Origin: Catellatospora vulcania
GTDB taxonomy: Bacteria > Actinomycetota > Actinomycetes > Mycobacteriales > Micromonosporaceae
Direction of reading: 5' to 3'
Length of the DNA stretch: 64,000 nt
NCBI RefSeq assembly: GCF_009720385.1
Contig: NZ_ML769303.1
Location: forward strand, 149,979-213,978
This document shows, one piece after another, positions 43,655 through 61,107 of this stretch. The notes below the pieces were generated by a model, which was given only the letters and a program-made list of their open reading frames with translations, did no database searches and was not told where the DNA came from. Position 1 is the stretch's first letter. Each line of letters starts with the position of its first letter. Both the position numbers and the translations under genes were made by a program.

Positions 43655-43730
43655 GCGCCGCTAGCTCAACTGGCAGAGCAGCGGACTCTTAATCCGCGGG
43701 TTCGGGGTTCGAGTCCCTGGCGGCGCACCA
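43655..43730 (+). tRNA. tRNA-Lys (CTT), island integration site
   Basis: Intact cloverleaf: acceptor GCGCCGC / GCGGCGC, anticodon stem GCGGA / TCCGC with loop CTCTTAA (anticodon CTT), A73, encoded CCA. Its 3' 51 bp recur exactly at 61057-61107, so the gene is the attachment site and its 3' half was probably supplied by the island. Confidence 0.96.
43680..43730 (+). repeat. Island direct repeat (attL), 51 bp
   Basis: From the anticodon stem to CCA of tRNA-Lys. Identical to 61057-61107; identity stops at once on both sides (C versus A before, AAAG versus CAGG after). Confidence 0.92.
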
Positions 43731-45303: not shown

Positions 45304-45471
45304 CTAGTACGGGTTGTCGTCGCTGGAGTTGCAGTTGCACTTGTTCGCGGCCAGGACGGTCTGCTCGACGTTGACGAACTCGATCTCCGTCACCTCAGGC
45401 CGCGGCTGCGGACGCTGGGACAGCGCGACCATGACCGGTGCCGGCCGGGTCGCTGTGGGTGTCGGTGCCAT
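45304..45471 (-). CDS. 55-residue Cys-containing peptide, candidate RiPP precursor
   Basis: Small gene with an excellent ribosome site (GGGGAGGTGATTGTCA-ATG). The product starts MAPTPTATRPAPVMVAL, has a middle EVTEIEFVNVEQTVLAAN and ends KCNCNSSDDNPY. A leader-like N-terminus plus a short C-terminal core with a CxC pair, Ser and Tyr is the shape of a ribosomally made, modified peptide precursor. The gene directly upstream is the SPASM end of a radical SAM protein, the kind of enzyme that makes thioether or C-C crosslinks in such cores. The family is not one I recognise. Confidence 0.65.
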   Translation of the reverse strand: MAPTPTATRPAPVMVALSQRPQPRPEVTEIEFVNVEQTVLAANKCNCNSSDDNPY

Positions 45472-45712
45472 TGACAATCACCTCCCCACTTTCTCGATGC
45501 TGGCAGTAGCGCTCCATCGGCGACTTCGCCTGCCGGTACAGCCGGACCAGCGGCATGCACGTGTTGCACGTGCCTTGCACGCCGCATCCGCTGCACCCGC
45601 CGGTCCTGGCGAGCAGGCCGTCGGCTATGCCGCCGAGTCGGCGCAGGCCCTCCACGCCTTCGGCGAGGAGGTCGATGTTGGGGTCCCGGCCGACCTTGCA
45701 GATCGAGGCCAT
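45395..45712 (-). pseudogene. Radical SAM/SPASM maturase fragment (C-terminal)
   Basis: 105-codon frame whose sequence GGCSGCGVQGTCNTCMPL followed by SPMERYCQHR has the C-x2-C-x5-C-x2-C ... C spacing of a SPASM auxiliary iron-sulfur domain. The radical SAM CxxxCxxC domain is missing: an in-frame TAG stands upstream and the DNA beyond 45770 encodes an unrelated plus-strand gene. So it is a truncated remnant. Its 3' end overlaps the peptide gene by 77 bp in another frame. Confidence 0.6.
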
Positions 45713-45850
45713 TCGACGGACCCATCCGGAATTACCGACCCAAGACCTGGAAGACTACGAAATGGACTAAAACCGCTCGGTGCCCTATGCCCGAAGCTAC
45801 GACGCGAAGACGGGTCGTGGCCTGCCGACCACGGCACCTACCAATACCAG

Positions 45851-46406
45851 ATGGACCTACCCGCATCGCCACGCGGCGAACGGCGGTTGCCACGCCGTAG
45901 CGGATTCGACACCCGTGAGGCGGCGGTCGCCGACCGCTGCCGGATCACGGAGGTCACCCTGGGCGCGGCGGAGTACATCTCCGACCGCGGAAGGCTGACG
46001 CTTCCCGCATGGCTGTTCACCGTGGCGGAGCCGGTCAGAACACTGGCCGTGCCCGCACTTGCCGCCGAGGCGTTCTGGTACCCAGGCGAGCCCAACTACG
46101 GCGACCTCCGCGGCCACAGTGTCCGCCGACGGGCGGGCACTGACCATCATGATGATGAAGCTGAAGGCGCCATGCCGCGGCGAGCCGACTCTGCGTCTGG
46201 CAGCGAAGGCGACGGAGTCCGTGACCGCGGTCACCGTCGGGCTGTACGTGGCGGAGATCGTGCCGGCTACCGCCACGACCACGGGCGACGACTGCTTCCG
46301 CGACTTCGAGCAGCTAGCCGAGCCGTACCAGGTGCGGTTGAACGCACCGCTGGGCAACCGAGGGTTGGTCGGGGCTAGCGGAGCATCTGCGGTCACCCGA
46401 GGTTGA
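45851..46406 (+). pseudogene. Frameshifted hypothetical gene
   Basis: Two frames read as one protein when joined near 46105-46122. The first gives CRITEVTLGAAEYISDRG and LPAWLFTVAEPVRTLAV; the second gives TVSADGRALTIMMMKLK, then GDDCFRDFEQLAEPYQVRL. The split is where DLRGHS should continue into VSADGR. It resembles exported actinobacterial hypothetical proteins; the 5' end is probably also missing. The gene is a broken remnant. Confidence 0.5.
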
Positions 46407-46667: not shown

Positions 46668-47792
46668 GTGGATTTCGAGAGGGCTTCGGACATTCTGCTG
46701 GCGCTGACCAGGCGCAAGAAGGTCAGCGACGCTTTGGAGTGGCTGGTGGAGGGCCGGCAGCTTGCCCAGCCACCGGACGTCCGCGACCTGTTCGTCGCAT
46801 TGATCACCATTGTTGACCAGTCGCCGAACCTCGCCGAGCTCGGCCGTAGCGCCCTGCTGGCCGCAACTAAGACTCACCTGAAGTCGGACATCGATCCCGC
46901 CGCGGAACTACTCGCCGTCGACAAGGTCACTCGTTCGAGCGAATACGACCAGGCCCTCAGCGACCTTGTGGGGCTGACGCCCGGGCGCTCGCTACGCGAC
47001 CTGAATCCGGCCATTGTCTTGGCGGCGCAGGCGCGCAATTCGCTGACCATGCGGGTGCTGTGTCTGATCGCGGGCCTGAGCTTCAAGGAGCTGAAGGCGC
47101 GATGCTCGGTCAAGCTGCCCGGACAGGCGCAGGGTAGGTGGAACGGGGAGCAGGTAACCGCGGCGTTCGGGGTGGTCGACATGATCGTGCGCGGCACGGT
47201 GGAGTGTCGCTCGCCTGTGGCGTCTCCCATGCGCCCGGTAGAGCTGATGATGCCTGCGGACGGCTTCGGCGACGGCTGGGGAGCTGTGGAGCAGATGCGC
47301 ACCGGCGGCGTTCCCTACTCGGTGCTGCTCGCGCAGCGTGCCGTGGGATCGGCCTGGCTGGCCCACCGGAATTCGACCACCGGCCGAGTGCAGGACGAGG
47401 TGAACGACAAGCTGCAGGAGAAGCTGGAAGCGGCCGGTGTGAAGGTTCGCCGTCTGCGAAGCGACGCCGTGTCCAAGGCGTTCATGGCGGACTTCATCAA
47501 AGACGGAGTAGACCGGGACACGGTCAAGCAGGTGAAGCTGGTCACCGAAGGCAAGGCCCCGATGGCGATCATCGTGTCGGTGGCTACCGACACCGGCACC
47601 GCTAACAAGAGCGGAGCAAAGCTACTGGGATTGGTTGATCATCTCAAGATGCGTGTGGCGGTCGTTCTCATGGGCAAGGGGTGGTCGCAGCGTAGGAACA
47701 CCGCCGACCTCATCCGTGGATTCGATGGGAGGGTGTACTCGGATCTCACTCTCGATCAGCTCGTAGGGGACCTCGCCGGCGGCCGCAGGTAG
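46668..47792 (+). CDS. Cassette protein 1, unknown
   Basis: 374-aa protein, no family recognised. GTG 46668 has a perfect AGGAGGT 5 nt upstream. The N-terminal half is helical. The C-terminal part has GSAWLAHRNSTTGRVQDEV, EKLEAAGVKVRRLRSDAV and a Rossmann-like beta-alpha region (APMAIIVSVATDTGTANKSG, MRVAVVLMGKG). The helical HRNSTTGRVQ stretch recalls some restriction endonucleases, but no PD-(D/E)XK or HNH motif is sure. It leads a five-gene run with helicase, nuclease-like and methyltransferase genes, so a restriction or sensor role is suspected. Confidence 0.75.
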   Translation: MDFERASDILLALTRRKKVSDALEWLVEGRQLAQPPDVRDLFVALITIVDQSPNLAELGRSALLAATKTHLKSDIDPAAELLAVDKVTRSSEYDQALSDLVGLTPGRSLRDLNPAIVLAAQARNSLTMRVLCLIAGLSFKELKARCSVKLPGQAQGRWNGEQVTAAFGVVDMIVRGTVECRSPVASPMRPVELMMPADGFGDGWGAVEQMRTGGVPYSVLLAQRAVGSAWLAHRNSTTGRVQDEVNDKLQEKLEAAGVKVRRLRSDAVSKAFMADFIKDGVDRDTVKQVKLVTEGKAPMAIIVSVATDTGTANKSGAKLLGLVDHLKMRVAVVLMGKGWSQRRNTADLIRGFDGRVYSDLTLDQLVGDLAGGRR

Positions 47793-47869
47793 GGCGCGGA
47801 GGCCGAATGTCGGCCGGTCGGTGCAGACTGGTGCGGTCGTAGGAGCGGACAGGTAGTCGGGGAGTGGCA

Positions 47870-49312
47870 ATGGTCGTGTTGACGCAGGTCCGTCGGCGTG
47901 TGATCGAGGAAACGTTGGCTGTGGCCGCGACGGATTCCCACGTGGAGCGGCGGGAGATTCCGTGGCGCGCAGGCAAGAAGTTGCTGCCCGTTGTGTCGCT
48001 GCGTGTTGATCATGTCGTCCTCAACCCGCGCAGCCACCGGATCCAGGCGCAGCTCAAATCCAACCCTGCGTGGACGGACCTGATGGCCGCGGATCCGTTC
48101 GGCGCGCCCGCGCAGGATGTGATCGCGCAGATCATCAAGGAGACGCCGGGCTACGAGCGGATCAGGAAGCTGCTGTCGCAGGAGCCACAGCGCGAGCCGG
48201 GGATGGTCACCACGGCGGGCGTGTTGATCAACGCCAACACGCGCGTGGTCGCGCTTCGTGAGTTGAACCGCGAGTACGTCAAGGTGCAGGTCCTGCCGGC
48301 CGACGCGAACGAGATCGAACTCGCAGATCTTGAGCTGAGTCTGCAGATGGAGGTGGAGAGCAAGCAGCCCTACTCGTTCACGAACAGGTTGTTGTTCATC
48401 CGCGACCTGCTGCGCACCCACCAGCCTGAAGACGTCGGTCTTAAGCTCGACCCAGCGCTGAGCAGGAACATCGAGGCTGACCGCAAGAAGGCCACGGCCG
48501 AGGTAGAGACCAGTGCTCGGCTCCTCAACATGATCGAGAACGTCATCCACGACTCCGGTGGGGCGTTGACCTACGAGTTCTTCGATGGTGAGCAGCAGAA
48601 CGTCAAGGATATCGACATCGCTTACGAGGCGCTGCTGCGGAGGGGCCAGCCGCAGCTGGCAGACAGGGTGCGCCGGGCGAAGATCGCCGGAATGTTGGCC
48701 GAAATGGACTACCGCAAGGTGCGTGACATCGACGCGACGCTGCTGTCGGACTATGTCGTCGGTGCGCTTCGCGAGCAGCCGTTGCTGAAGGACCATGTCG
48801 CGTTGCTGACCACCGCCGAGCCGTCGGACCATGCGGCGGCTGACGTGACCGGGCTGGATATCCTCGACGACCTCGACGATCTTGACGACTTCGACAGCCG
48901 TGACGACGAGGCGGGCGCCGGCGTGGTGACGCTGGAGCCGGTCTACCGGCTGCTCGCCGCGACGCCGAAGGATGGAGAGGTGAAGCTGCCAGCTGTTGGT
49001 GACAGCCCCGCGAAGACCCTTGCGCGTGAGGTCTTCTCCAAGGCTGTGTTCGCCGGGCTGAACACGGCACTGATGGCCATGGCTAGCGACAGCAAGCACG
49101 GCACGGAGCTCGAGTCGCCCTACCGTCGCTTGATGCTGGCTGCCCGTGCCTGTGACCAGGTTAAGGAGGCAGTGGCGAGGGTGAACGACCGCAGCGACGT
49201 CGACCTGGACAAGGTGAAGTCCGCGCTGGGCGCCTTTGAGCGGGCACGTGACGAGATGGTCATGGTGCTCGAGCAGTTCGGTGTGTCGATCGACGACGGC
49301 GACCTGGCGTGA
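47870..49312 (+). CDS. Cassette protein 2, ParB-like domain
   Basis: 480-aa protein. Residues about 40-160 resemble a ParB/DndB-type N-domain: VVSLRVDHVVLNPRSHRIQ, then TTAGVLINANTRVVALREL and VKVQVLPAD, the strand-helix pattern in which a G-x-R-x-x-A loop binds nucleotide or DNA. A long helical region follows, with an Asp-rich stretch at about 325-345. ATG 47870 has GGGGAG 5 nt upstream. Its stop overlaps the helicase start by 4 bp, so the two are coupled. Confidence 0.78.
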   Translation: MVVLTQVRRRVIEETLAVAATDSHVERREIPWRAGKKLLPVVSLRVDHVVLNPRSHRIQAQLKSNPAWTDLMAADPFGAPAQDVIAQIIKETPGYERIRKLLSQEPQREPGMVTTAGVLINANTRVVALRELNREYVKVQVLPADANEIELADLELSLQMEVESKQPYSFTNRLLFIRDLLRTHQPEDVGLKLDPALSRNIEADRKKATAEVETSARLLNMIENVIHDSGGALTYEFFDGEQQNVKDIDIAYEALLRRGQPQLADRVRRAKIAGMLAEMDYRKVRDIDATLLSDYVVGALREQPLLKDHVALLTTAEPSDHAAADVTGLDILDDLDDLDDFDSRDDEAGAGVVTLEPVYRLLAATPKDGEVKLPAVGDSPAKTLAREVFSKAVFAGLNTALMAMASDSKHGTELESPYRRLMLAARACDQVKEAVARVNDRSDVDLDKVKSALGAFERARDEMVMVLEQFGVSIDDGDLA

Positions 49313-51192
49313 CGGCCCCGCTGCTGACGCTGGTGCTCGGTGAGGGCGCACCTCCGTTCGCTATCGCTACTCGCAACGCCGCAGTGCCGGAAGTGTTCTG
49401 GGACCGTCTGCGGGTGGAGTGGGGCTACGCGGGTGATCCGGCGCGGTCGGTGCGGGTGCCTATGGCGCGGTTCCGGGCGAACCTGGGGTGGCTGCGGTCT
49501 GCGTGTGAGCAGCACGAGGTCAGCCTCGACTGGGATCTGAAGCTGAAGGACGTCGTCCGTCAATCTATCGAGGAACGCCGACAGGTTGAGGCGCTGCTGG
49601 ACAAGGCCGTGCCGCTGGAACCTCACGAGGTCCGGGCACGCCTCGCCGACACCCGGTTCAACCGGGACCTGCGCGACTTCCAGCTGCGCGACGTCGGCCG
49701 GCTGCTCGCCCTGCCGCACGGCGCTAACTTCTCCGTGCCGGGCGCAGGCAAGACTACGGTCGCCTACGCCGTCTACGAGGCCGAACGCGTCGCGGGCAAG
49801 GTGTCGCAGATGCTGGTCGTGGCGCCGCTGTCGGCCTTCGATGCATGGCGCTCGGAGATCACTGAGTGCTTCGACGCTGCCGACGCGCCTAAAGTCCGGG
49901 TGCTGACCGACGGCGACCCCGGCGACGCCGAGGTGCTGCTGGTCAACTACCACCGGCTGGCCGGCAACTTCGAGACGGTCGTGCGCTGGGTCGCGCAGGC
50001 GCCGACGCTCACATTGCTGGACGAGGCGCACCGTATGAAGGCCGGCCGCAACGGCCAGCACGGCAGCGCGTGCCTGGACCTGGCGTTCGGCGCAGTTCGT
50101 CGCGACATCCTTACTGGCACCCCGGCGCCGCAGGCCCCGAACGACTTCCTGGCGCTACTGGACTTCCTGTGGCCGGGGCAGGCTCGCAGGCTTATCCCGC
50201 GGGCTGCGCTGGCCAGCCGCCCGTCGACCGAAGCCGTGCACGACGTCGCCCGGGCCATCCGGCCGCTGTTCGTGCGCACTCGCAAGCAGGAACTCGGCCT
50301 CACCCCGCCGCGGCTGCGGGTCGAGTCCGTGCCACTGGAGGGCCTGCACCGCGACATCTACCTGGCGCTGCGGGACCAGTACGCCGGTGAGATGAAGGTC
50401 AACATGACCGACCGGGTCGAGCTGGGCCGCATGGGCGCGGTCGTGATGTACCTGCTGGAGGCGGCGACGAACCCGTTCCTGCTGGCGACCGGGTCCAGCG
50501 TTGACGACGCGCCGGAGTTCCGGCACCCGCCGCTGTCTGTGGAGCCAGGCAGCAGGTTGTGGGATCTGCTGCAGCGCTACAACCAGTACGAGACGCCTAC
50601 CAAGTTCGTCCGGCTCGCGCAGATGGTCAAGGCCAACGCCGAAATGGGCCGTAAGACGTTGGTGTGGTCGAATTTCGTCCGGAACCTGCACATGCTCGAG
50701 CGGATGTTTCGCGGACTCAACCCGGCGATGATCTACGGCGGTGTGCCGTCGGAGGGCAACGGCCCGCCCGGCAACGGTCGCACCCGCGAGCAGGAGCTGC
50801 GCCGTTTCCGCCACGACGACTGCATGGTGCTGCTGGCCAACCCCGCCGCCATGAGCGAGGGCGTGAGCCTGCACATGACCTGCCACGACGCGATCTACCT
50901 TGATCGGACCTTCAACGCAGGCCAGTACCTGCAGAGCATCGACCGCATCCACCGGCTGGGCCTGGACCCCGGCGTCGAGACACGGCTCACCTTCCTGGCG
51001 ACCGCCGACACCATCGATGACGTCGTCAACGACCGGATCAAGATCAAGGCGACAGCGTTGGGGAACATGCTCAACGATCCCGATCTGGTCGCGATGGCCT
51101 TGCCCGACAGCGACGAGGAGGGCTACGGCGCCACTATTGACGACGAAGCAGACGTCCAGGCCCTGTTCGCGCACCTTCGCGGAGAGCGGTGA
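49309..51192 (+). CDS. Cassette protein 3, SNF2-type SF2 helicase
   Basis: 627-aa superfamily 2 ATPase. Q-motif region LRDFQLRDVGRLL, Walker A SVPGAGKTT (142-150), motif Ia VVAPLSAFDAW, DEAH box 238-241 (TLLDEAHRMK), motif III LTGTPAPQAPNDF, and the C-lobe motifs TLVWSNFVRNLHML and QSIDRIHRLG. This set is typical of SNF2-like translocases found in restriction and anti-phage systems. GTG 49309 overlaps the upstream stop (GTGA). The nuclease-like gene follows after 6 bp. Confidence 0.92.
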   Translation: MTAPLLTLVLGEGAPPFAIATRNAAVPEVFWDRLRVEWGYAGDPARSVRVPMARFRANLGWLRSACEQHEVSLDWDLKLKDVVRQSIEERRQVEALLDKAVPLEPHEVRARLADTRFNRDLRDFQLRDVGRLLALPHGANFSVPGAGKTTVAYAVYEAERVAGKVSQMLVVAPLSAFDAWRSEITECFDAADAPKVRVLTDGDPGDAEVLLVNYHRLAGNFETVVRWVAQAPTLTLLDEAHRMKAGRNGQHGSACLDLAFGAVRRDILTGTPAPQAPNDFLALLDFLWPGQARRLIPRAALASRPSTEAVHDVARAIRPLFVRTRKQELGLTPPRLRVESVPLEGLHRDIYLALRDQYAGEMKVNMTDRVELGRMGAVVMYLLEAATNPFLLATGSSVDDAPEFRHPPLSVEPGSRLWDLLQRYNQYETPTKFVRLAQMVKANAEMGRKTLVWSNFVRNLHMLERMFRGLNPAMIYGGVPSEGNGPPGNGRTREQELRRFRHDDCMVLLANPAAMSEGVSLHMTCHDAIYLDRTFNAGQYLQSIDRIHRLGLDPGVETRLTFLATADTIDDVVNDRIKIKATALGNMLNDPDLVAMALPDSDEEGYGATIDDEADVQALFAHLRGER

Positions 51193-51198
51193 ACGCTG

Positions 51199-52131
51199 AT
51201 GAACCTGCTTCTTCCCGCGCAGCGCACTATCCCGGGCATCCTGCAGGTGAACGCGGCCGCCGAACTCTGGCCGATCTTCACCGAGGAAGGTGTGAACGCC
51301 CGCAAGCTGGAGTCGCAGTACCACAGGATCCCCACCCAGGGCGTGCACGACCACGCCTCGCTGTGGCAAGGTCAGCAACTGCTGCTGCGCCTCGGGTTGA
51401 TCGTCGAACGTGACGGCTCCTTGTATTCCCACCCTGACCTGCGGGCGTTTCAGGATATGGCGCACCAAATGCGTGTCGAGGTCCTGACCGAGCGTGCGCT
51501 GCTGACGTGGGCGACGCTGTGGCTGCCTACGTTCGCCGATGCCGACGAGGTCCACTGGGAGCGCGTCCCGGCCGAGGCGCACAACTTGCTGGCCTCAGTC
51601 TTCGAAGACACCGGACGACGTGAAGCCTTCATCCTCGCCTCCGCCCGCAAAGTCGACGCGGCGCTGCTGGCCGAGATCGGCTCCGACGGGGAAGTTGCTG
51701 TTGTCGCTAGATGCCGCGAGCACTTGTCCGGCAAGAACCGGGGCGACCTGGCCGCGATGGTGACTAGGGTCAGCCTCACCGACGACACGGCCGGATTCGA
51801 CGTCTACGCGCTGGACTGCGCCGGCAGCCGACACCACATGGAAGTGAAGACCACGCGGTCGATCACCGAGCGCATTGGGTTCTACCTGAGCCGCAACGAG
51901 GCGATAGTCGGCCAGAGGGACGAGTGCTGGGCCATCGTGGTGGCCAGGCAAGTGGTCGTGTCGGGCGACGGCCAGGCCGAAACCGAGGTCGTCGGCTGGC
52001 TGAAGTACACCGATATTCACGACCTGCTTCCCAGTGACACGATCACCGACACCGACTCATTTGCCCGATGGGCGTCGACGAAGATCGTCGTCCCCCAGTG
52101 GCGGCTACGCCCAGGGCTACCACTTGACTGA
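51199..52131 (+). CDS. Cassette protein 4, DUF3883-like putative nuclease
   Basis: 310-aa protein. The C-terminal half fits a DUF3883/NOV-type restriction endonuclease-like fold: GFDVYALDCAGSRHHMEVK gives Asp201 ... Glu215-x-Lys217, the PD-(D/E)XK core, followed by FYLSRNEAIVGQ and a downstream beta strand (CWAIVVARQV). The N-terminal half is helical. ATG 51199 begins 6 bp after the helicase stop. In defence systems this domain often accompanies helicases. It has no visible target-recognition domain. Confidence 0.82.
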   Translation: MNLLLPAQRTIPGILQVNAAAELWPIFTEEGVNARKLESQYHRIPTQGVHDHASLWQGQQLLLRLGLIVERDGSLYSHPDLRAFQDMAHQMRVEVLTERALLTWATLWLPTFADADEVHWERVPAEAHNLLASVFEDTGRREAFILASARKVDAALLAEIGSDGEVAVVARCREHLSGKNRGDLAAMVTRVSLTDDTAGFDVYALDCAGSRHHMEVKTTRSITERIGFYLSRNEAIVGQRDECWAIVVARQVVVSGDGQAETEVVGWLKYTDIHDLLPSDTITDTDSFARWASTKIVVPQWRLRPGLPLD

Positions 52132-52291
52132 CCCGGCCACTGCGCGTTGACTCGCGATCATCAGCGAGACCACTTATGATCAAGGCCGCCACGCGGCTCG
52201 CGGATCAGCAGGTCGAGTTGCTGCCGGTCGCGCCGCTAACGGCGGCATAGATTGGCCTCACTCACGCAATGACCGACTTGGAGCAACGACC

Positions 52292-54301
52292 ATGGCTACG
52301 GCGACGATAACGGGACACCAGACCCGGGAGTCGCTCGACGCGCCATCCGCGCGTGTCAGCCCTCTACGACACCTCAACCCCACCGCCGTGAGCGCGGCAG
52401 CCAAGATCGAAAGCCGCAACCGCGAGGTCCACCTGCCACCCGTCAGCATCTACCGCTGGTGGGCCCGCCGCACGGCCGCCGTCAACGGCGCGATCATCGA
52501 CGCCTTCGCCCAAGACCACCCGGGCAAGCTCCTCATCGCTGACGTCTTCGCAGGCGGCGGGGTCATCCCACTGGCGGCAGCGGTACGTAATCACCAGGTG
52601 TACGCGCAGGACCTCAACCCCTGGGCCGCCACAGGCCTGGCCGCGATGCTCGGCCTGCCTACGGCCAATTCACTGCGAGAAGCGTACGCGGCCATGCGCC
52701 AGTGGATCGACGCCGAGGTATCGGCCGCCTACGGAACGACACTGTCCGACGGCACCAGCGGCCTGGTCTCCCACACCTTCCGCGTCGCCACCGCCGAATG
52801 CACCAACTGCCACGTCCGTGCCCGCCTCTTCCCCCACGCCATGGTCACACTGCTCGCCCGCCGCGAACGCGACAAGCCCGAAGCCTTCCTGGCCTGCCCC
52901 GAAGGCCACCTCTTCGCAGGCGACTCCTCCGAGGTCAACATCTGTCCGCAGTGCAAGACCAAGACCGACCCCGACGCCACTTATACGGCACGTCGCCAGG
53001 TCGTCTGCCGCTCCTGCAAACACGAGGACCGGCTGGAGCAACGTGCTGGCACCTGGCAATGGGAGATCGTGCTGGTCGAACGCAGCGGCAAGAAGAAGCG
53101 TGAACTCGCCCTGCCGTCCACCAGCGAGATCGAAGCCGCGGACCACGAACGCTGGCAGCCAAGCCGCCAACTCGGAGCCATCCCCGAAGGCCAAGAGACC
53201 AAGGTCCTGCTTCGGCACGGCTTTACCACCTGGGACGACCTCTACCCGCGCCGCCAGCGGTACCTGCTTGAACGCATCCTGCTGTCCGCGCAGAGCTGTT
53301 CCCAAGACGCCGCCGTTGTACAGGCCATGTCGATGGCGGTCATCGGCTCTGCCGAAATGGCGGGACATGTCTCACGCTGGGACCGCTACTACCTCAAGAG
53401 CTACGAATCGATGGCGGGCCACCGGTTCAACCTGACCACCCTCACCGTCGAGCCGAACGCGTGGGGCACCCACAACAGCGGCCGCGGAACGGTGCTGCGT
53501 CGCATCAACCAGCTGATCAAGGCCGCTGAGTGGTTCCACAAGAAGACGGCTAAAGACGTCAGCGTGGAAGGGCCCCTGTTCGCGACAGCAAAGACTCCTG
53601 CGCCGTTCACCGACGACGTGAGGGTGGTCGAGGGTTCCTCAGAGACGATCCTGCTGCCCGACGGCGTCGTCGACCTCGTCCTGACCGATCCGCCCTACCA
53701 CGACGACGTCCAATACTCGGAGCTGTCCCGCCCGTTCCGGGCCTGGGCCAACATTGTTGACGGCCCGCTGTGGCACCCGCAGATGGACGACGGTCATCTG
53801 TCCGGCGAAGCCGTGGTCAACGGGGCGCTCGGCCAGCTCACCGAAGACGGCGCCTACGGCGGACTACTGCAGCGGATCTTCACCGAGGTCCGGCGCACAC
53901 TCAAGCCATCAGGACACCTGGTCTTCAGCTACGCCAATCGCAGTCCATCAGCGTGGGTTGAAGTGTTCAACGCGCTGCAGGCAGCTGGTTTCCGTGCCTC
54001 CGGCTGCGAGATCGTCCACAGCGAGAACGAGACAGACCACGCCAAACGCGGCGTCCGCGCCTGTACGCTCGACCTAATCCTCGACCTGGTGGTAGCCGAC
54101 GAGACCCCCATCGAGCCGCACCATCCCCGCACCACCGAAGATTCGATCGAGGTGACGTTCCTCAGGATCGTCGCGGACACGTTCGCCAAAATCGGCTCCC
54201 TGCCGACCGGATGGGAGAAGCAGTTCCAGGCCGACCTGGCCAGCACCGCCTTCCTGGCCGGGCCGAAGAAGGCCAAGCCCGCACCGCCAGAGAAGGCATA
54301 G
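52292..54301 (+). CDS. Cassette protein 5, DUF1156-type DNA methyltransferase
   Basis: 669-aa amino-methyltransferase. N-terminal DUF1156-like start (REVHLPPVSIYRWWARRTAA), SAM-binding DVFAGGGVIPLAA (84-96), and catalytic motif IV Asp466-Pro-Pro-Tyr469 (LTDPPYHDDVQYSELS). Between them are zinc-ribbon pairs (CTNCHVR, ICPQCKTK, VCRSCKHED). DPPY implies N6-adenine or N4-cytosine methylation. ATG 52292 has GGAG 8 nt upstream; the 160-bp gap before it may carry its own promoter, so that methylation precedes restriction. It completes the cassette. Confidence 0.9.
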   Translation: MATATITGHQTRESLDAPSARVSPLRHLNPTAVSAAAKIESRNREVHLPPVSIYRWWARRTAAVNGAIIDAFAQDHPGKLLIADVFAGGGVIPLAAAVRNHQVYAQDLNPWAATGLAAMLGLPTANSLREAYAAMRQWIDAEVSAAYGTTLSDGTSGLVSHTFRVATAECTNCHVRARLFPHAMVTLLARRERDKPEAFLACPEGHLFAGDSSEVNICPQCKTKTDPDATYTARRQVVCRSCKHEDRLEQRAGTWQWEIVLVERSGKKKRELALPSTSEIEAADHERWQPSRQLGAIPEGQETKVLLRHGFTTWDDLYPRRQRYLLERILLSAQSCSQDAAVVQAMSMAVIGSAEMAGHVSRWDRYYLKSYESMAGHRFNLTTLTVEPNAWGTHNSGRGTVLRRINQLIKAAEWFHKKTAKDVSVEGPLFATAKTPAPFTDDVRVVEGSSETILLPDGVVDLVLTDPPYHDDVQYSELSRPFRAWANIVDGPLWHPQMDDGHLSGEAVVNGALGQLTEDGAYGGLLQRIFTEVRRTLKPSGHLVFSYANRSPSAWVEVFNALQAAGFRASGCEIVHSENETDHAKRGVRACTLDLILDLVVADETPIEPHHPRTTEDSIEVTFLRIVADTFAKIGSLPTGWEKQFQADLASTAFLAGPKKAKPAPPEKA

Positions 54302-54653: not shown

Positions 54654-55268
54654 ATGGAAGATGCCGGAGTGCTCACCACGTCAGCGCCCTCGCCCACCCG
54701 CTTGACCGTGCTGTCCGGGCCCTCCGGTGTCGGTAAGGACGCGGTTATCGAAGCCGTCCGCAACAGGTCCGCCCACGTTTGGCTATCTGTGTCGGTAACA
54801 ACGCGCCGCAAGCGGGACTATGAGATCGACGGCATGCACTACACCTTCGTGTCCCGGGCCGAGTTCCAGACCCTCGTAGATGCCGGCCTGCTGCTGGAAT
54901 GGGCAGAGTTCGCCGGCAACCTCTACGGCACTCCGCGCGCCGCGGTGCAGGATCGTCTCCGCGCCGGTGTGCCGGTTCTCCTGAAGATCGACTTGCAAGG
55001 TGCCCGTCAGGTCCGCGAGACCATGCCCGACGCGCAACTGGTCTTCCTCGCACCGCCCAGCCGAGAAGAGCTACGCCGCCGGCTGGTAGGCCGCGGCACC
55101 GAAGACCCCGTAACTCTGCGCCGCCGGCTGGCCCACGCCGACGAGGAACTGGCCGCAGAGCAGGAGTTCGATGTAACCGTCGTGAACGACAGACTCGAAC
55201 GAGCCGCAGATGAGCTGATCGGGCTGCTGGCGGCGACACCGCTCGTCGCCGCACCGGCTCGGCGTTGA
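54654..55268 (+). CDS. Guanylate kinase-like protein in the island
   Basis: 204-aa nucleoside monophosphate kinase of the Gmk family. P-loop [10 protein letters not shown] (22-30), the GMP-binding [21 protein letters not shown] in part, [10 protein letters not shown], and the lid [19 protein letters not shown] are intact. It is a complete enzyme and not the housekeeping gmk context (no rpoZ or mihF nearby). A role in nucleotide-based defence or phage nucleotide metabolism is possible. ATG 54654. Confidence 0.82.
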
Positions 55269-55532: not shown

Positions 55533-56450
55533 GTGACGATCGATGGACAAGACGGTCTGAGACGGCGGACGGCCGATGAGCACATGTTCCAGCCTGATAG
55601 CGGGACCTGGACGAACGCTACCTTCCGGATCCAGGTGTTCACCGCACCCGGACTGCGGCCGGTCGGGATAGCGACGCAGATCCCCGGGCAAGACGGGCGG
55701 TCGCTGACGAATGCTGCCGAGATCTATGCTGCGGCGGTATGGGAGCGGCTGTGTCCAGAAGAGGCACAACCCCCAATCTGGATCGAGAACCAGTTACTCC
55801 AAAGCACTGCTGAGCCACGGTTGAAGGTGGTGAGATTCGGCCACGCTGAGCCGTTTCGGTTGACTGACCCAAGCTGGGAGACGATCGACCCGCCCCGGCT
55901 GTCGCAGCTGGTCGGCTGCGAGGTCGACCTAACCCGAGGAGACGGGTACATCCCCCCACCGCCGGAACCTGAGCCGATCGAGGTCTTTATCGCATTCCCG
56001 GTGCAGCAACTCCCATTGACCACTCCGTTTCGGGCCGCCTGCATGGTTGAGCCCTCGCGCCGTTCATGGCCAGGTCAGTTCCAGTTCCTATCTCGGCGTC
56101 GAGGCGCTATCGGCAGACGGACCTGTTGCTTCTATCACCAGATCGACTGGGTGCAGGTGAACAAAGTGGGCATACCTGTGCTGAAGAAGGCGTGGGGTGA
56201 GGGACTGCGAGGGGAGGAGCTCATCACGGAGGTCGAGGACCGGGCCGCCGGCCTGTTGTCGGATCAAGGTTCGCGAGACGCGCTGGGCACCTTGCTCCAC
56301 GACCCCATTCACATTGTGCGCGACGGTGAGGGGTGGGCCTGGATCAACGGTCAGCATCGAACACAAGCAATGAAAGACCTTGGGATCCCACTAACCATCG
56401 TGATGATCTACGAGTGGCCAGAAGCTGACGAACTCCCAGACTTGCGGTGA
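55533..56450 (+). CDS. Unknown protein with NGQHR (ParB/DGQHR-like) motif
   Basis: 305-aa protein, GTG or TTG-type start at 55533. No family is recognised over most of its length, which is rich in Pro and aromatic residues. The C-terminal IHIVRDGEGWAWINGQHRTQAMKDLG ends matches a DGQHR/ParB-like core: strand, NGQHR turn, helix. Two proteins with this kind of fold (see 47870) in one island is notable. Codon use is less GC-biased than the core genome. Possibly DNA-binding or nucleotide-hydrolysing. Confidence 0.62.
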   Translation: MTIDGQDGLRRRTADEHMFQPDSGTWTNATFRIQVFTAPGLRPVGIATQIPGQDGRSLTNAAEIYAAAVWERLCPEEAQPPIWIENQLLQSTAEPRLKVVRFGHAEPFRLTDPSWETIDPPRLSQLVGCEVDLTRGDGYIPPPPEPEPIEVFIAFPVQQLPLTTPFRAACMVEPSRRSWPGQFQFLSRRRGAIGRRTCCFYHQIDWVQVNKVGIPVLKKAWGEGLRGEELITEVEDRAAGLLSDQGSRDALGTLLHDPIHIVRDGEGWAWINGQHRTQAMKDLGIPLTIVMIYEWPEADELPDLR

Positions 56451-58489: not shown

Positions 58490-58738
58490 TCACATCTCGC
58501 GCTCGAGCCAACGCTGCCGAGCCAACTGCAGCTCGGCCAGAGGCACCCTTTCCATCCCGAGGTCCAATGAGTAGAGAGGAAAGATCCAATTGTCGCGGAC
58601 TTCGCGTGCATCGCGCCGATTTTTCTCTGTGTTGGGCACGCTCAGGTTCTGAATTACGGCAATGTTCAGCGCCTCGATGGCCTTCCAGTGGGTGGTGTCT
58701 TCCACAGTTACGCCACTCCAGACATCGCGAATCGCCAC
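58490..58738 (-). pseudogene. Possible C-terminal gene remnant
   Basis: Minus-strand frame of 82 codons with protein-like sequence (VEDTTHWKAIEALNIAVIQN, REVRDNWIFPLYSLDLGMER, QLARQRWLEREM). No ribosome site and the 5' side runs into the opposite-strand gene, so it looks like a fragment. No family recognised. Confidence 0.3.
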
Positions 58739-58745
58739 TAGCCCG

Positions 58746-59721
58746 TTGCGAGACAGCAGACCTAATCGTAGTGCCCTAGCCCGTCGTGTTGAAGAACTTC
58801 GGGCCGAAGCAGGCAACAATATCGAAGCGCAACACGTTCTATCTAAAGTAATCTTGAAGCAGTTTACCGACAATAGACGTCTACTACATGCGGTCAGCGT
58901 CACCGATCTCGAGGCAGGGCCCCTCATAAGAGGTCCACGTGGTTTGGGTAAGGTGCCCAACTTCGTACGTCAGGCGTCGAAGTCCGCAGAAGAACTATGG
59001 GGTAGAACCGAGAACCTCGTACCGAGAGTTATTAAGCTATGCGAGCAGGACCGCCTGCACGGCGATGCCGCTGCGCTCGCGGTTGTTCGGGATACAGTGG
59101 CGTTGCACTATATCCGAACGCCCGGTGTTGGCGATTCATGAGCGCGGGTATGAGCAGATCCGAGAGGAGCTGCGGCAGAACGCACGAAACATGCCAGGAT
59201 ACGAGGAGGGTTTCCGCAGTCAATTCGGCCGGGCACTACGAAATGATGAAGACCATGATGCCTATTTTGAAAGTGCATTCATGGAATGCCGCCAGTGGAT
59301 GGTCAACAAGCCGGTGCAGTTGCTGCATCCGGGGGACGGGATGTTCCTCATTGGCGATTCGCCGGTGATCTCCATCGATCACCTCGGGCAACTTGGCCCT
59401 GAAAATGGCGTAGCAATGGGGAACGCAATCCAGATACTCATGCCGTTGACCCCACGAACGCTGATCGCCTTCGGCCCTTCAGCCACCGGCGTGGTGCCTG
59501 CCGAAGTCGTGGCGGAGTTGAACACCTTCCAGGTTCGTGCGGCTCGCGAATACGTTTTCGTGCACCCTGCCAGCGGTCTGGAAGGCTTTGTGCGGACCGT
59601 GCGGCTCGGCACCGAGGCGCTTGACGGGTCCGGTTGTGTCCAAGAAGGATTGAATACCAAACGGCCATATGTCGGTCGCGACGGTGCCCAGCTGGAGGCG
59701 GTATCCCAGGTTGCTTTGTGA
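58746..59721 (+). pseudogene. Frameshifted DUF4238-like gene
   Basis: Two overlapping frames form one protein of about 320 residues. The first runs to VALHYIRTP, the second continues VLAIHERGYEQIREELRQNA. They join cleanly if one C of the CCC run at 59121-59123 is dropped. NIEAQHVLSKVILKQFTDN at the start and FLIGDSPVISID later fit a DUF4238-like family. The break is either a real one-base insertion or a sequencing error. Confidence 0.6.
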
Positions 59722-61056: not shown

Positions 61057-61107
61057 AGCGGACTCTTAATCCGCGGGTTCGGGGTTCGAGTCCCTGGCGG
61101 CGCACCA
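61057..61107 (+). repeat. Island direct repeat (attR), tRNA-Lys 3' fragment
   Basis: Exact copy of 43680-43730, the last 51 bp of tRNA-Lys including CCA, with no 5' half. It marks the right end of the island. Confidence 0.92.

Follow-up and report, generated by a model that had tools for sequence, protein, structure and literature searches.

In the restriction-modification (R-M) systems CglI and NgoAVII, the components are a separate methyltransferase (MTase), a restriction protein and a helicase-like ATPase, and ATP-dependent communication along the DNA precedes cutting (PMC5737866, PMC4267653). We analysed a 64,000-nucleotide stretch of the 8.83-Mb genome of Catellatospora vulcania (contig NZ_ML769303.1, positions 149,979 to 213,978; hereafter the window) and a five-gene cassette within it. 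The first gene encodes P1, a protein that resembles a type II restriction endonuclease (REase) lacking its active site; the others encode a ParB-like protein, an SNF2-type protein, a NOV_C (DUF3883-like) protein and a DUF1156-like MTase. We read the cassette, with a probability of roughly 0.58, as an ATP-dependent R-M system composed of a reader, a clamp or adaptor, a motor, a cutter and a marker. CglI/NgoAVII are the closest in logic and the closest mechanistic precedent that we found, a likeness drawn from the components. Their R protein is the endonuclease, whereas the cassette has a dead REase-like protein, a separate NOV_C protein as the likely cutter and an added ParB-like protein.

Other described systems share parts of this set. 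SNF2-DUF3883 fusions in DUF499/HEPN R-M operons, where DUF3883 was termed a novel REase domain, already link an SNF2 helicase with DUF3883 (PMC3710099); there the two are fused and lie beside DUF499, and the passages concerned mention neither a ParB-like protein nor a dead type II REase. MORC/paraMORC operons (PMC2292703) share an SWI2/SNF2 helicase, HNH or other nucleases, Dcm and Vsr with the loci of families X and HNH described below. They differ in being centred on a GHKL ATPase, and the parts of that paper covered include neither ParB nor a dead REase. In the window cassette Pfam found nothing of GHKL type, and at L006, an X locus, the neighbouring ATPase gene belongs to the AAA type. In BREX-Related (BR) systems and type 3 BREX, the Swi2/Snf2 helicase carries an inactive REase domain, proposed as a sensor in the sections seen (PMC12839542). 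That domain belongs to the helicase and is not a separate type II relative varying by locus; BR is also centred on a DUF499 ATPase, for which Pfam found no match in the cassette.

An earlier note on this DNA had compared the cassette with DISARM while remarking that DISARM partners were absent. The DISARM core consists of DrmA, DrmB (DUF1998) and DrmC (PLD). The absence held, with no match to DrmB or PLD and only partial PADLOC matches to DrmA and DrmD, all from SNF2 (best 1.3e-4); as a mechanistic precedent, however, DISARM gives way to CglI/NgoAVII. R.CglI is a nuclease of the PLD type, whereas no cassette gene matches the PLD family and P1 lacks the PD and ExK motifs. BREX requires PglZ and BrxC, neither of which was matched by any of the five genes in Pfam, PADLOC or NCBIfam, and Hma comprises HmaA, HmaB and HmaC, of which PADLOC gave partial matches to HmaA (26 bits) and HmaB (47 bits) and none to HmaC. 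In FANCM-FAAP24, a translocase works together with a protein of nuclease fold that binds but does not cleave DNA. This is a eukaryotic repair complex (PMC3905867), with no restriction or methylation logic. The note's remark that it knew of no named system with this exact set agrees with PADLOC and NCBIfam, which matched none among the window genes and their relatives. We recognised nothing in the literature that describes the five genes together, in a search in which preprints and most subscription papers were out of reach, which leaves absence unproven.

P1 and its four partners

Relatives were collected with the SNF2 alignment, from a scan of genome contigs (best 80 of 322 relatives kept) and a viral scan (six best of 53). 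Open reading frames (ORFs) were clustered and searched with family profiles in 93 of 143 loci (L004-L096) plus the window, to which the counts below refer; the counts exclude L001-L003, which are short and redundant, and L097-L143, whose viral SNF2 matches are weaker. P1, ParB, SNF2, NOV_C and MTase occur complete in 13 of the 94 loci, window included. The note had proposed co-occurrence as a check, and the five families recur together in 12 other loci, i.e., beyond chance. Ten of these are from Sciscionella, Planotetraspora, Blastococcus, Nocardioides, Kribbella, two Actinomadura, Spongiactinospora, Catellatospora and Microbacterium, and the remaining two are from metagenome-assembled genomes of Acidimicrobiaceae and of Solibacter (Acidobacteriota). 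P1 is accompanied in 13/13 loci by the DUF1156-like MTase and in 13/13 by NOV_C. Three further loci (L021, L023 and L026) carry that MTase with no P1, even in a relaxed P1 search; the gene 5' of ParB reads as an integrase in L021 and resembles DUF4238 in L023 (our own reading; PADLOC gave no match).

P1 gave no confident match in Pfam, PADLOC or NCBIfam (best RdfA, 0.035, below the cut-off). The note had called it unknown and missed the likeness to a catalytically dead type II REase, which became apparent from separate, active-type relatives (P1'). All five separate P1' copies have the APDF...ExK pattern of the PD-(D/E)XK superfamily, whereas PD and ExK are both absent from all 13 ParB-adjacent P1 proteins. 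Two P1' proteins match Pfam PDDEXK_11 below the cut-off (0.043 and 0.28) over the PD...ECK stretch; the P1' of L014 has no such match. P1 is under purifying selection, with dN/dS of 0.14-0.25 in five pairs of relatives vs 0.06-0.16 for SNF2.

P1' occurs repeatedly next to an MTase. It lies directly behind an MTase gene on a Microbacterium plasmid (N6_N4 MTase, 1.3e-35), directly behind an ORF 31% identical to that MTase (6.7e-32) in genome G138, and directly behind a DUF1156-like MTase in G204, a genome of the window's family. The G204 unit (L153:6665-9854; a 717-aa MTase plus active-type P1') is a candidate plain type II R-M pair.

The catalytic motifs of the partners are kept. Gene 3 matches Pfam SNF2-rel_dom (9.4e-15) and Helicase_C (6.4e-08); the Walker A (142-150) and DEAH (238-241) motifs lie where the note had placed them, and across the relatives DEAH is present in 93/93 and the Walker A lysine in 92/93, with one gap. 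Gene 4 matches Pfam NOV_C (6.1e-05, 23.5 bits vs a cut-off of 22.1), in agreement with the DUF3883-like assignment made before; D201, E215 and K217, also correctly positioned, are kept in 58/58, an endonuclease site that is intact as judged from sequence and is found in all 13 P1 loci. Gene 5 has DPPY at 466-469 as claimed, and both DPPY and motif I are conserved (16/16 each). Its matches (PADLOC PglXI 7.5e-20 and DUF1156_MTase 7.7e-12; NCBIfam DUF1156_antiphage 61 bits vs a cut-off of 1000) support DUF1156-like but not full membership of DUF1156. Each P1 locus thus links an MTase with conserved motifs to a putative endonuclease, as expected of an R-M system.

Gene 2 itself has no match in Pfam, PADLOC or NCBIfam, and the earlier "ParB-like" label rests on its family, where support is moderate. 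Pfam ddrB-ParB matches weakly in 11 of 45 relatives (best 2.5e-4), the window protein not among them, and a repeat scan found it in two of ten members (0.015-0.023). Aligned with hhalign to the canonical ParB N-domain over Q-x-E-P...G-x-L-x-N-x-N-T-R-x-x-A-L, the family reached E 4e-4 and a probability of 35%, against at most 8.5% for 12 control families. N125 and R127 are found in 91 of 92 rows, with one gap. A tblastn search with gene 2 returned five plasmids, each with the ParB-helicase pair (annotated ParB/RepB/Spo0J in two and ParB N-terminal in one); behind the pair lies a DUF3883 gene, annotated as such on four of the plasmids and present without annotation on the other. Two copies, each divided into two ORFs, look broken: the ParB gene of L011 (3718-5141) and the SNF2 gene of L054 (9944-11629).

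In the mechanism that we propose, P1 would retain the REase scaffold without its catalytic residues and bind its own recognition sequence when this is unmethylated. It would then recruit the ParB-like protein, as a clamp or adaptor, and the SNF2 motor, which would travel along the DNA with ATP, and NOV_C, the likely cutter at the window locus, would cut the DNA. On host DNA this recognition sequence would carry the modification made by the DUF1156-like MTase and would be ignored by P1. A dead REase would be a natural sequence reader, because protection by an MTase depends on its recognising the site that the reader recognises; the pairing of P1' with a gene-5-like MTase in G204 is consistent with this.

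Varying occupants of the slot beside ParB

The ParB-SNF2(-NOV_C) core has different MTase and REase-like partners on different branches, which the earlier note did not see. The slot beside ParB holds an HNH-family protein in 33 loci, family X in 28, P1 in 13, a BglII-like protein in five and none in 15. A C5 MTase accompanies X in 25/28 loci and HNH in 31/33. In the SNF2 tree (92 of 94 rows; L054 and L096 dropped by length or absence; L005/L046 and L094/L095 identical), a quick search without bootstrap in which long branches were flagged, the slot classes follow the phylogeny. Groups of HNH (34 rows), X (29) and BglII-like (4) each have a Shimodaira-Hasegawa-like approximate likelihood ratio support of 100, and a fourth group of 24 rows (support 97) unites P1, Eco57I-MTase and slot-less DUF1156-MTase rows. 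The slot label changes seven times and that of P1 alone twice. The groups are not pure: L004 falls in the HNH group and L051 in the X group, both with no slot found.

Loss of catalytic residues recurs in each of these families. Within X, all 28 ParB-adjacent copies read I/V-x-K, whereas 6 of 7 separate copies (X') read D/E-x-K, and the upstream Asp is present in 0/28 of the former vs 7/7 of the latter. A single PADLOC model of a type II REase matches one X' at 2.3e-120 and one X at 2.7e-19. X' is found behind C5 MTase genes on plasmids, e.g., a 6-kb Phaeobacter plasmid; six of the 18 plasmid records with X-type matches to X' were opened, Rhizobium among them, and the Azospirillum and Mesorhizobium rows are X. 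On a Kozakia plasmid (L163:3676-4534), X' beside dcm is annotated as two pieces, and the plasmid also has X-ParB-SNF2-NOV_C. An assignment of family X as NotI-like, suggested by a motif, was dropped when no match to NotI in the PDB appeared at E up to 1.

In the HNH family, His and Asn are absent from 33/33 ParB-adjacent copies and kept in 3/3 separate copies (with the His of L061 one column off). A separate copy matches Pfam HNH_5 (7.3e-08) and HNH (3.3e-07), and the ParB-adjacent copy scanned (L081) has no such match. Rhodococcus opacus pROB02 carries dcm, an active-type HNH, a NaeI-family REase and Vsr side by side, and a family that we take as NaeI-like (#25) occurs at several HNH-type loci. 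L064 and L085 have a dead HNH, ParB and SNF2, and the stretch fetched showed neither an MTase nor NOV_C. Searches of solved structures with the HNH and ParB profiles gave nothing usable.

The BglII-like proteins read Q-x-Q, in the four rows aligned, at the E-x-Q/E-x-E of BstYI/BamHI, which we take to be the catalytic residues. The viral-classed contigs L092-L096 contain an MTase, this Q-x-Q protein, a ParB-like protein and SNF2, with NOV_C-like genes in L092-L095; a Paracoccus plasmid carries a close copy of the viral-contig BglII-like gene, and searches of phage records with gene 2, P1' and the BglII-like protein were negative. In loci not used before, all seven slots were dead (six HNH, one X; G411, probably the genome of L019, not counted), a test of known families rather than of a new one.

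The P1', X' and active-type HNH relatives resemble type II R-M enzymes, and MTase-P1' and dcm-X' pairs occur with no core nearby. P1 differs from a type II REase in having no intact site of its own and in sitting with a motor and another nuclease. Somewhat short of even odds, we tentatively suggest that these loci form a separate class of restriction, in which at least four unrelated type II REase families (P1, X, HNH and BglII-like), stripped of their active sites, serve as plug-in readers for the ParB-SNF2(-NOV_C) module. The target would be changed by swapping the retired enzyme together with its MTase, much as dead Cas9 is used for targeting. At E <= 1e-60, SNF2 proteins of the cassette family occur in 8 of 393 further genomes that were sampled from the class; within the genus, 2 of 10 other genomes have strong matches, and gene 2 as a single-sequence query was found in 2 of 395 further genomes from the phylum.

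Weighing the readings

Several observations weigh against the proposed R-M system. Active-site loss was probably about one old event in each family, so that counts within a family are not independent and the strength of the argument lies in four unrelated families rather than in raw counts. The ParB assignment of gene 2 is moderate. The P1 and X profiles found no usable match among solved structures, and one of seven X' proteins (L035) has Ala at the Glu position. The BglII-like protein stays just under the cut-off of Pfam Endonuc-BglII (2.3e-05, 24.6 bits vs 26), and its matches to BstYI and BamHI are weak (E 0.07 and 0.65). In 15 of the 94 loci the search showed no REase-like slot, and eight of these have an Eco57I-type MTase (L024, L025, L027, L028, L031, L037, L052 and L058); in these eight, the MTase itself perhaps reads the site. 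NOV_C was missed in four of 28 X-type loci (three of the four end at a contig end) and in three of five BglII-type loci; L094 and L095 among these have a separately clustered family whose L093 member matches Pfam NOV_C. It was also not found in 25 of 33 HNH-type loci, each with at least 6.6 kb behind SNF2. NOV_C is therefore not the linked cutter everywhere, and another nuclease, or a different way of working, would apply at those loci.

The absence of NOV_C from those HNH loci also favours an accessory role, in which the dead REase, ParB-like and SNF2 proteins would regulate or restrain a type II R-M system already resident in the host, e.g., through competition with the active REase or by stripping it from host sites. 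SNF2 proteins that strip proteins off DNA exist, and many X and HNH loci do carry further REase-like genes (X', GIY-YIG, DUF4928, NaeI-like), which likewise weighs against the proposed R-M system. At the P1 loci the picture is different: P1' is absent from the fetched flanks in 11 of 13 (with little sequence before P1 in L011, L016 and L018), NOV_C with an intact site is present in 13/13, and P1 was the sole match when the window genome was searched with P1', with no further P1-like protein. There is thus no homologous cutter to restrain in this genome, P1 is unlikely to be a mere brake on an active homologue, and we regard the accessory role as unlikely. The other two P1 loci contain an active-type P1', which counts against the proposed R-M system. 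L012 has a six-gene same-strand row, P1'-P1-ParB-SNF2-NOV_C-MTase, and L014 has both proteins, as expected if the dead REase paired, as an inactive subunit, with an active REase or with NOV_C, so that the heterodimer nicked one strand or cleaved at a distance, with the ParB-like protein as a nuclease or NTPase effector. Nuclease and NTPase activities of the ParB superfamily are discussed in the parts of PMC12839542 and PMC10853773 that we covered. With P1' in only 2 of 13 P1 loci, this arrangement seems distinctly improbable.

The cassette might instead be a variant of DISARM, BREX, Hma or the BREX-related DUF499 systems that has lost parts, and weak PADLOC matches lean that way, of SNF2 to HmaA, ZorD, DpdE, BrxH, DrmA and DrmD and of the MTase to HmaB, PglXI and DUF1156_MTase. 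These are partial, NCBIfam defence models reach only 14-61 bits against cut-offs of 500-1500, and none of the five genes matches DrmB, PLD, PglZ, BrxC or DUF499, so that we give this origin very little credence. Equally slight is the chance that P1 is a nuclease whose active site has escaped recognition. D308, the Asp of D-x-GTA, is invariant in P1 and P1', as such a site might be; PD and ExK are nevertheless gone from every P1, and the neighbouring families X, HNH and BglII-like show comparable losses. An ATP-dependent R-M system with a dead REase as its reader remains our preferred reading, and the interpretation given in the earlier note is, as a whole, partly supported, its logic of helicase, nuclease and methyltransferase being among the parts that hold.

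The tRNA-Lys island and what the cassette may mean

All five ORFs were confirmed on one strand at the coordinates first proposed (Table 1). Genes 1 and 2 are separated by 71 bp, genes 2 and 3 overlap by 4 bp, and 6 bp and 160 bp separate genes 3 and 4 and genes 4 and 5, which bears out the close packing described for the middle genes; AGGAGGT lies 5' of the GTG start of gene 1.

Table 1. Positions of the cassette genes and of the island features in the window
Feature	Position	Strand	Size	Remarks
Gene 1 (P1)	46668..47792	+	374 aa	REase-like without PD and ExK; proposed address reader
Gene 2	47864..49312	+	482 aa	ParB-like; Q-x-E-P...N-x-N-T-R motif
Gene 3	49309..51192	+	627 aa	SNF2-type helicase/translocase
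Gene 4	51199..52131	+	310 aa	NOV_C (DUF3883-like), PD-(D/E)XK-type; proposed cutter
Gene 5	52292..54301	+	669 aa	DUF1156-like amino-methyltransferase (DPPY); proposed self-marking enzyme
tRNA-Lys(CTT)	43655..43730	+		ARAGORN; 3' 51 bp (43680-43730) form one island end
Repeat of tRNA-Lys 3' end	61057..61107	+	51 bp	Perfect copy; other end of the 17.4-kb island
Possible integrase remnant	45314..46378	+		Inside island; Pfam Arm-DNA-bind_4 E 0.039, below cut-off

The tRNA island that had been suspected is borne out by the perfect repeat of the tRNA-Lys 3' end on both sides. The G+C content is about 0.68-0.75 ahead of the island and drops to 0.57 near 56-59 kb. A hairpin-like short sequence found at about 61390 in the window lies directly behind the tRNA in five of nine congeneric genomes, and three of the nine (G397, G398 and G399) have extra copies of the 51-bp repeat on the same contig, so that this tRNA-Lys looks like an integration hot spot. 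Just behind the cassette, the island encodes a guanylate-kinase family protein (54654-55268; Pfam 4.3e-43). A second possible ParB/DGQHR-like protein (55533-56450; INGQHRTQAM, by eye) follows, with a weak Pfam FhuF_C match and none in PADLOC or NCBIfam. DUF4238 matches at 58662-59721 are divided between two overlapping ORFs, and this gene is therefore probably broken.

If the proposed system is correct, restriction enzymes would repeatedly have been turned into sequence readers that serve one shared, ATP-driven cutter, and the cassette family would represent a natural modular route from simple type II R-M to motor-driven systems. Catalytically dead restriction enzymes, which annotation passes over, would then gain a meaning, and methyl-sensitive DNA-binding proteins would become available with sites predictable from their active relatives.

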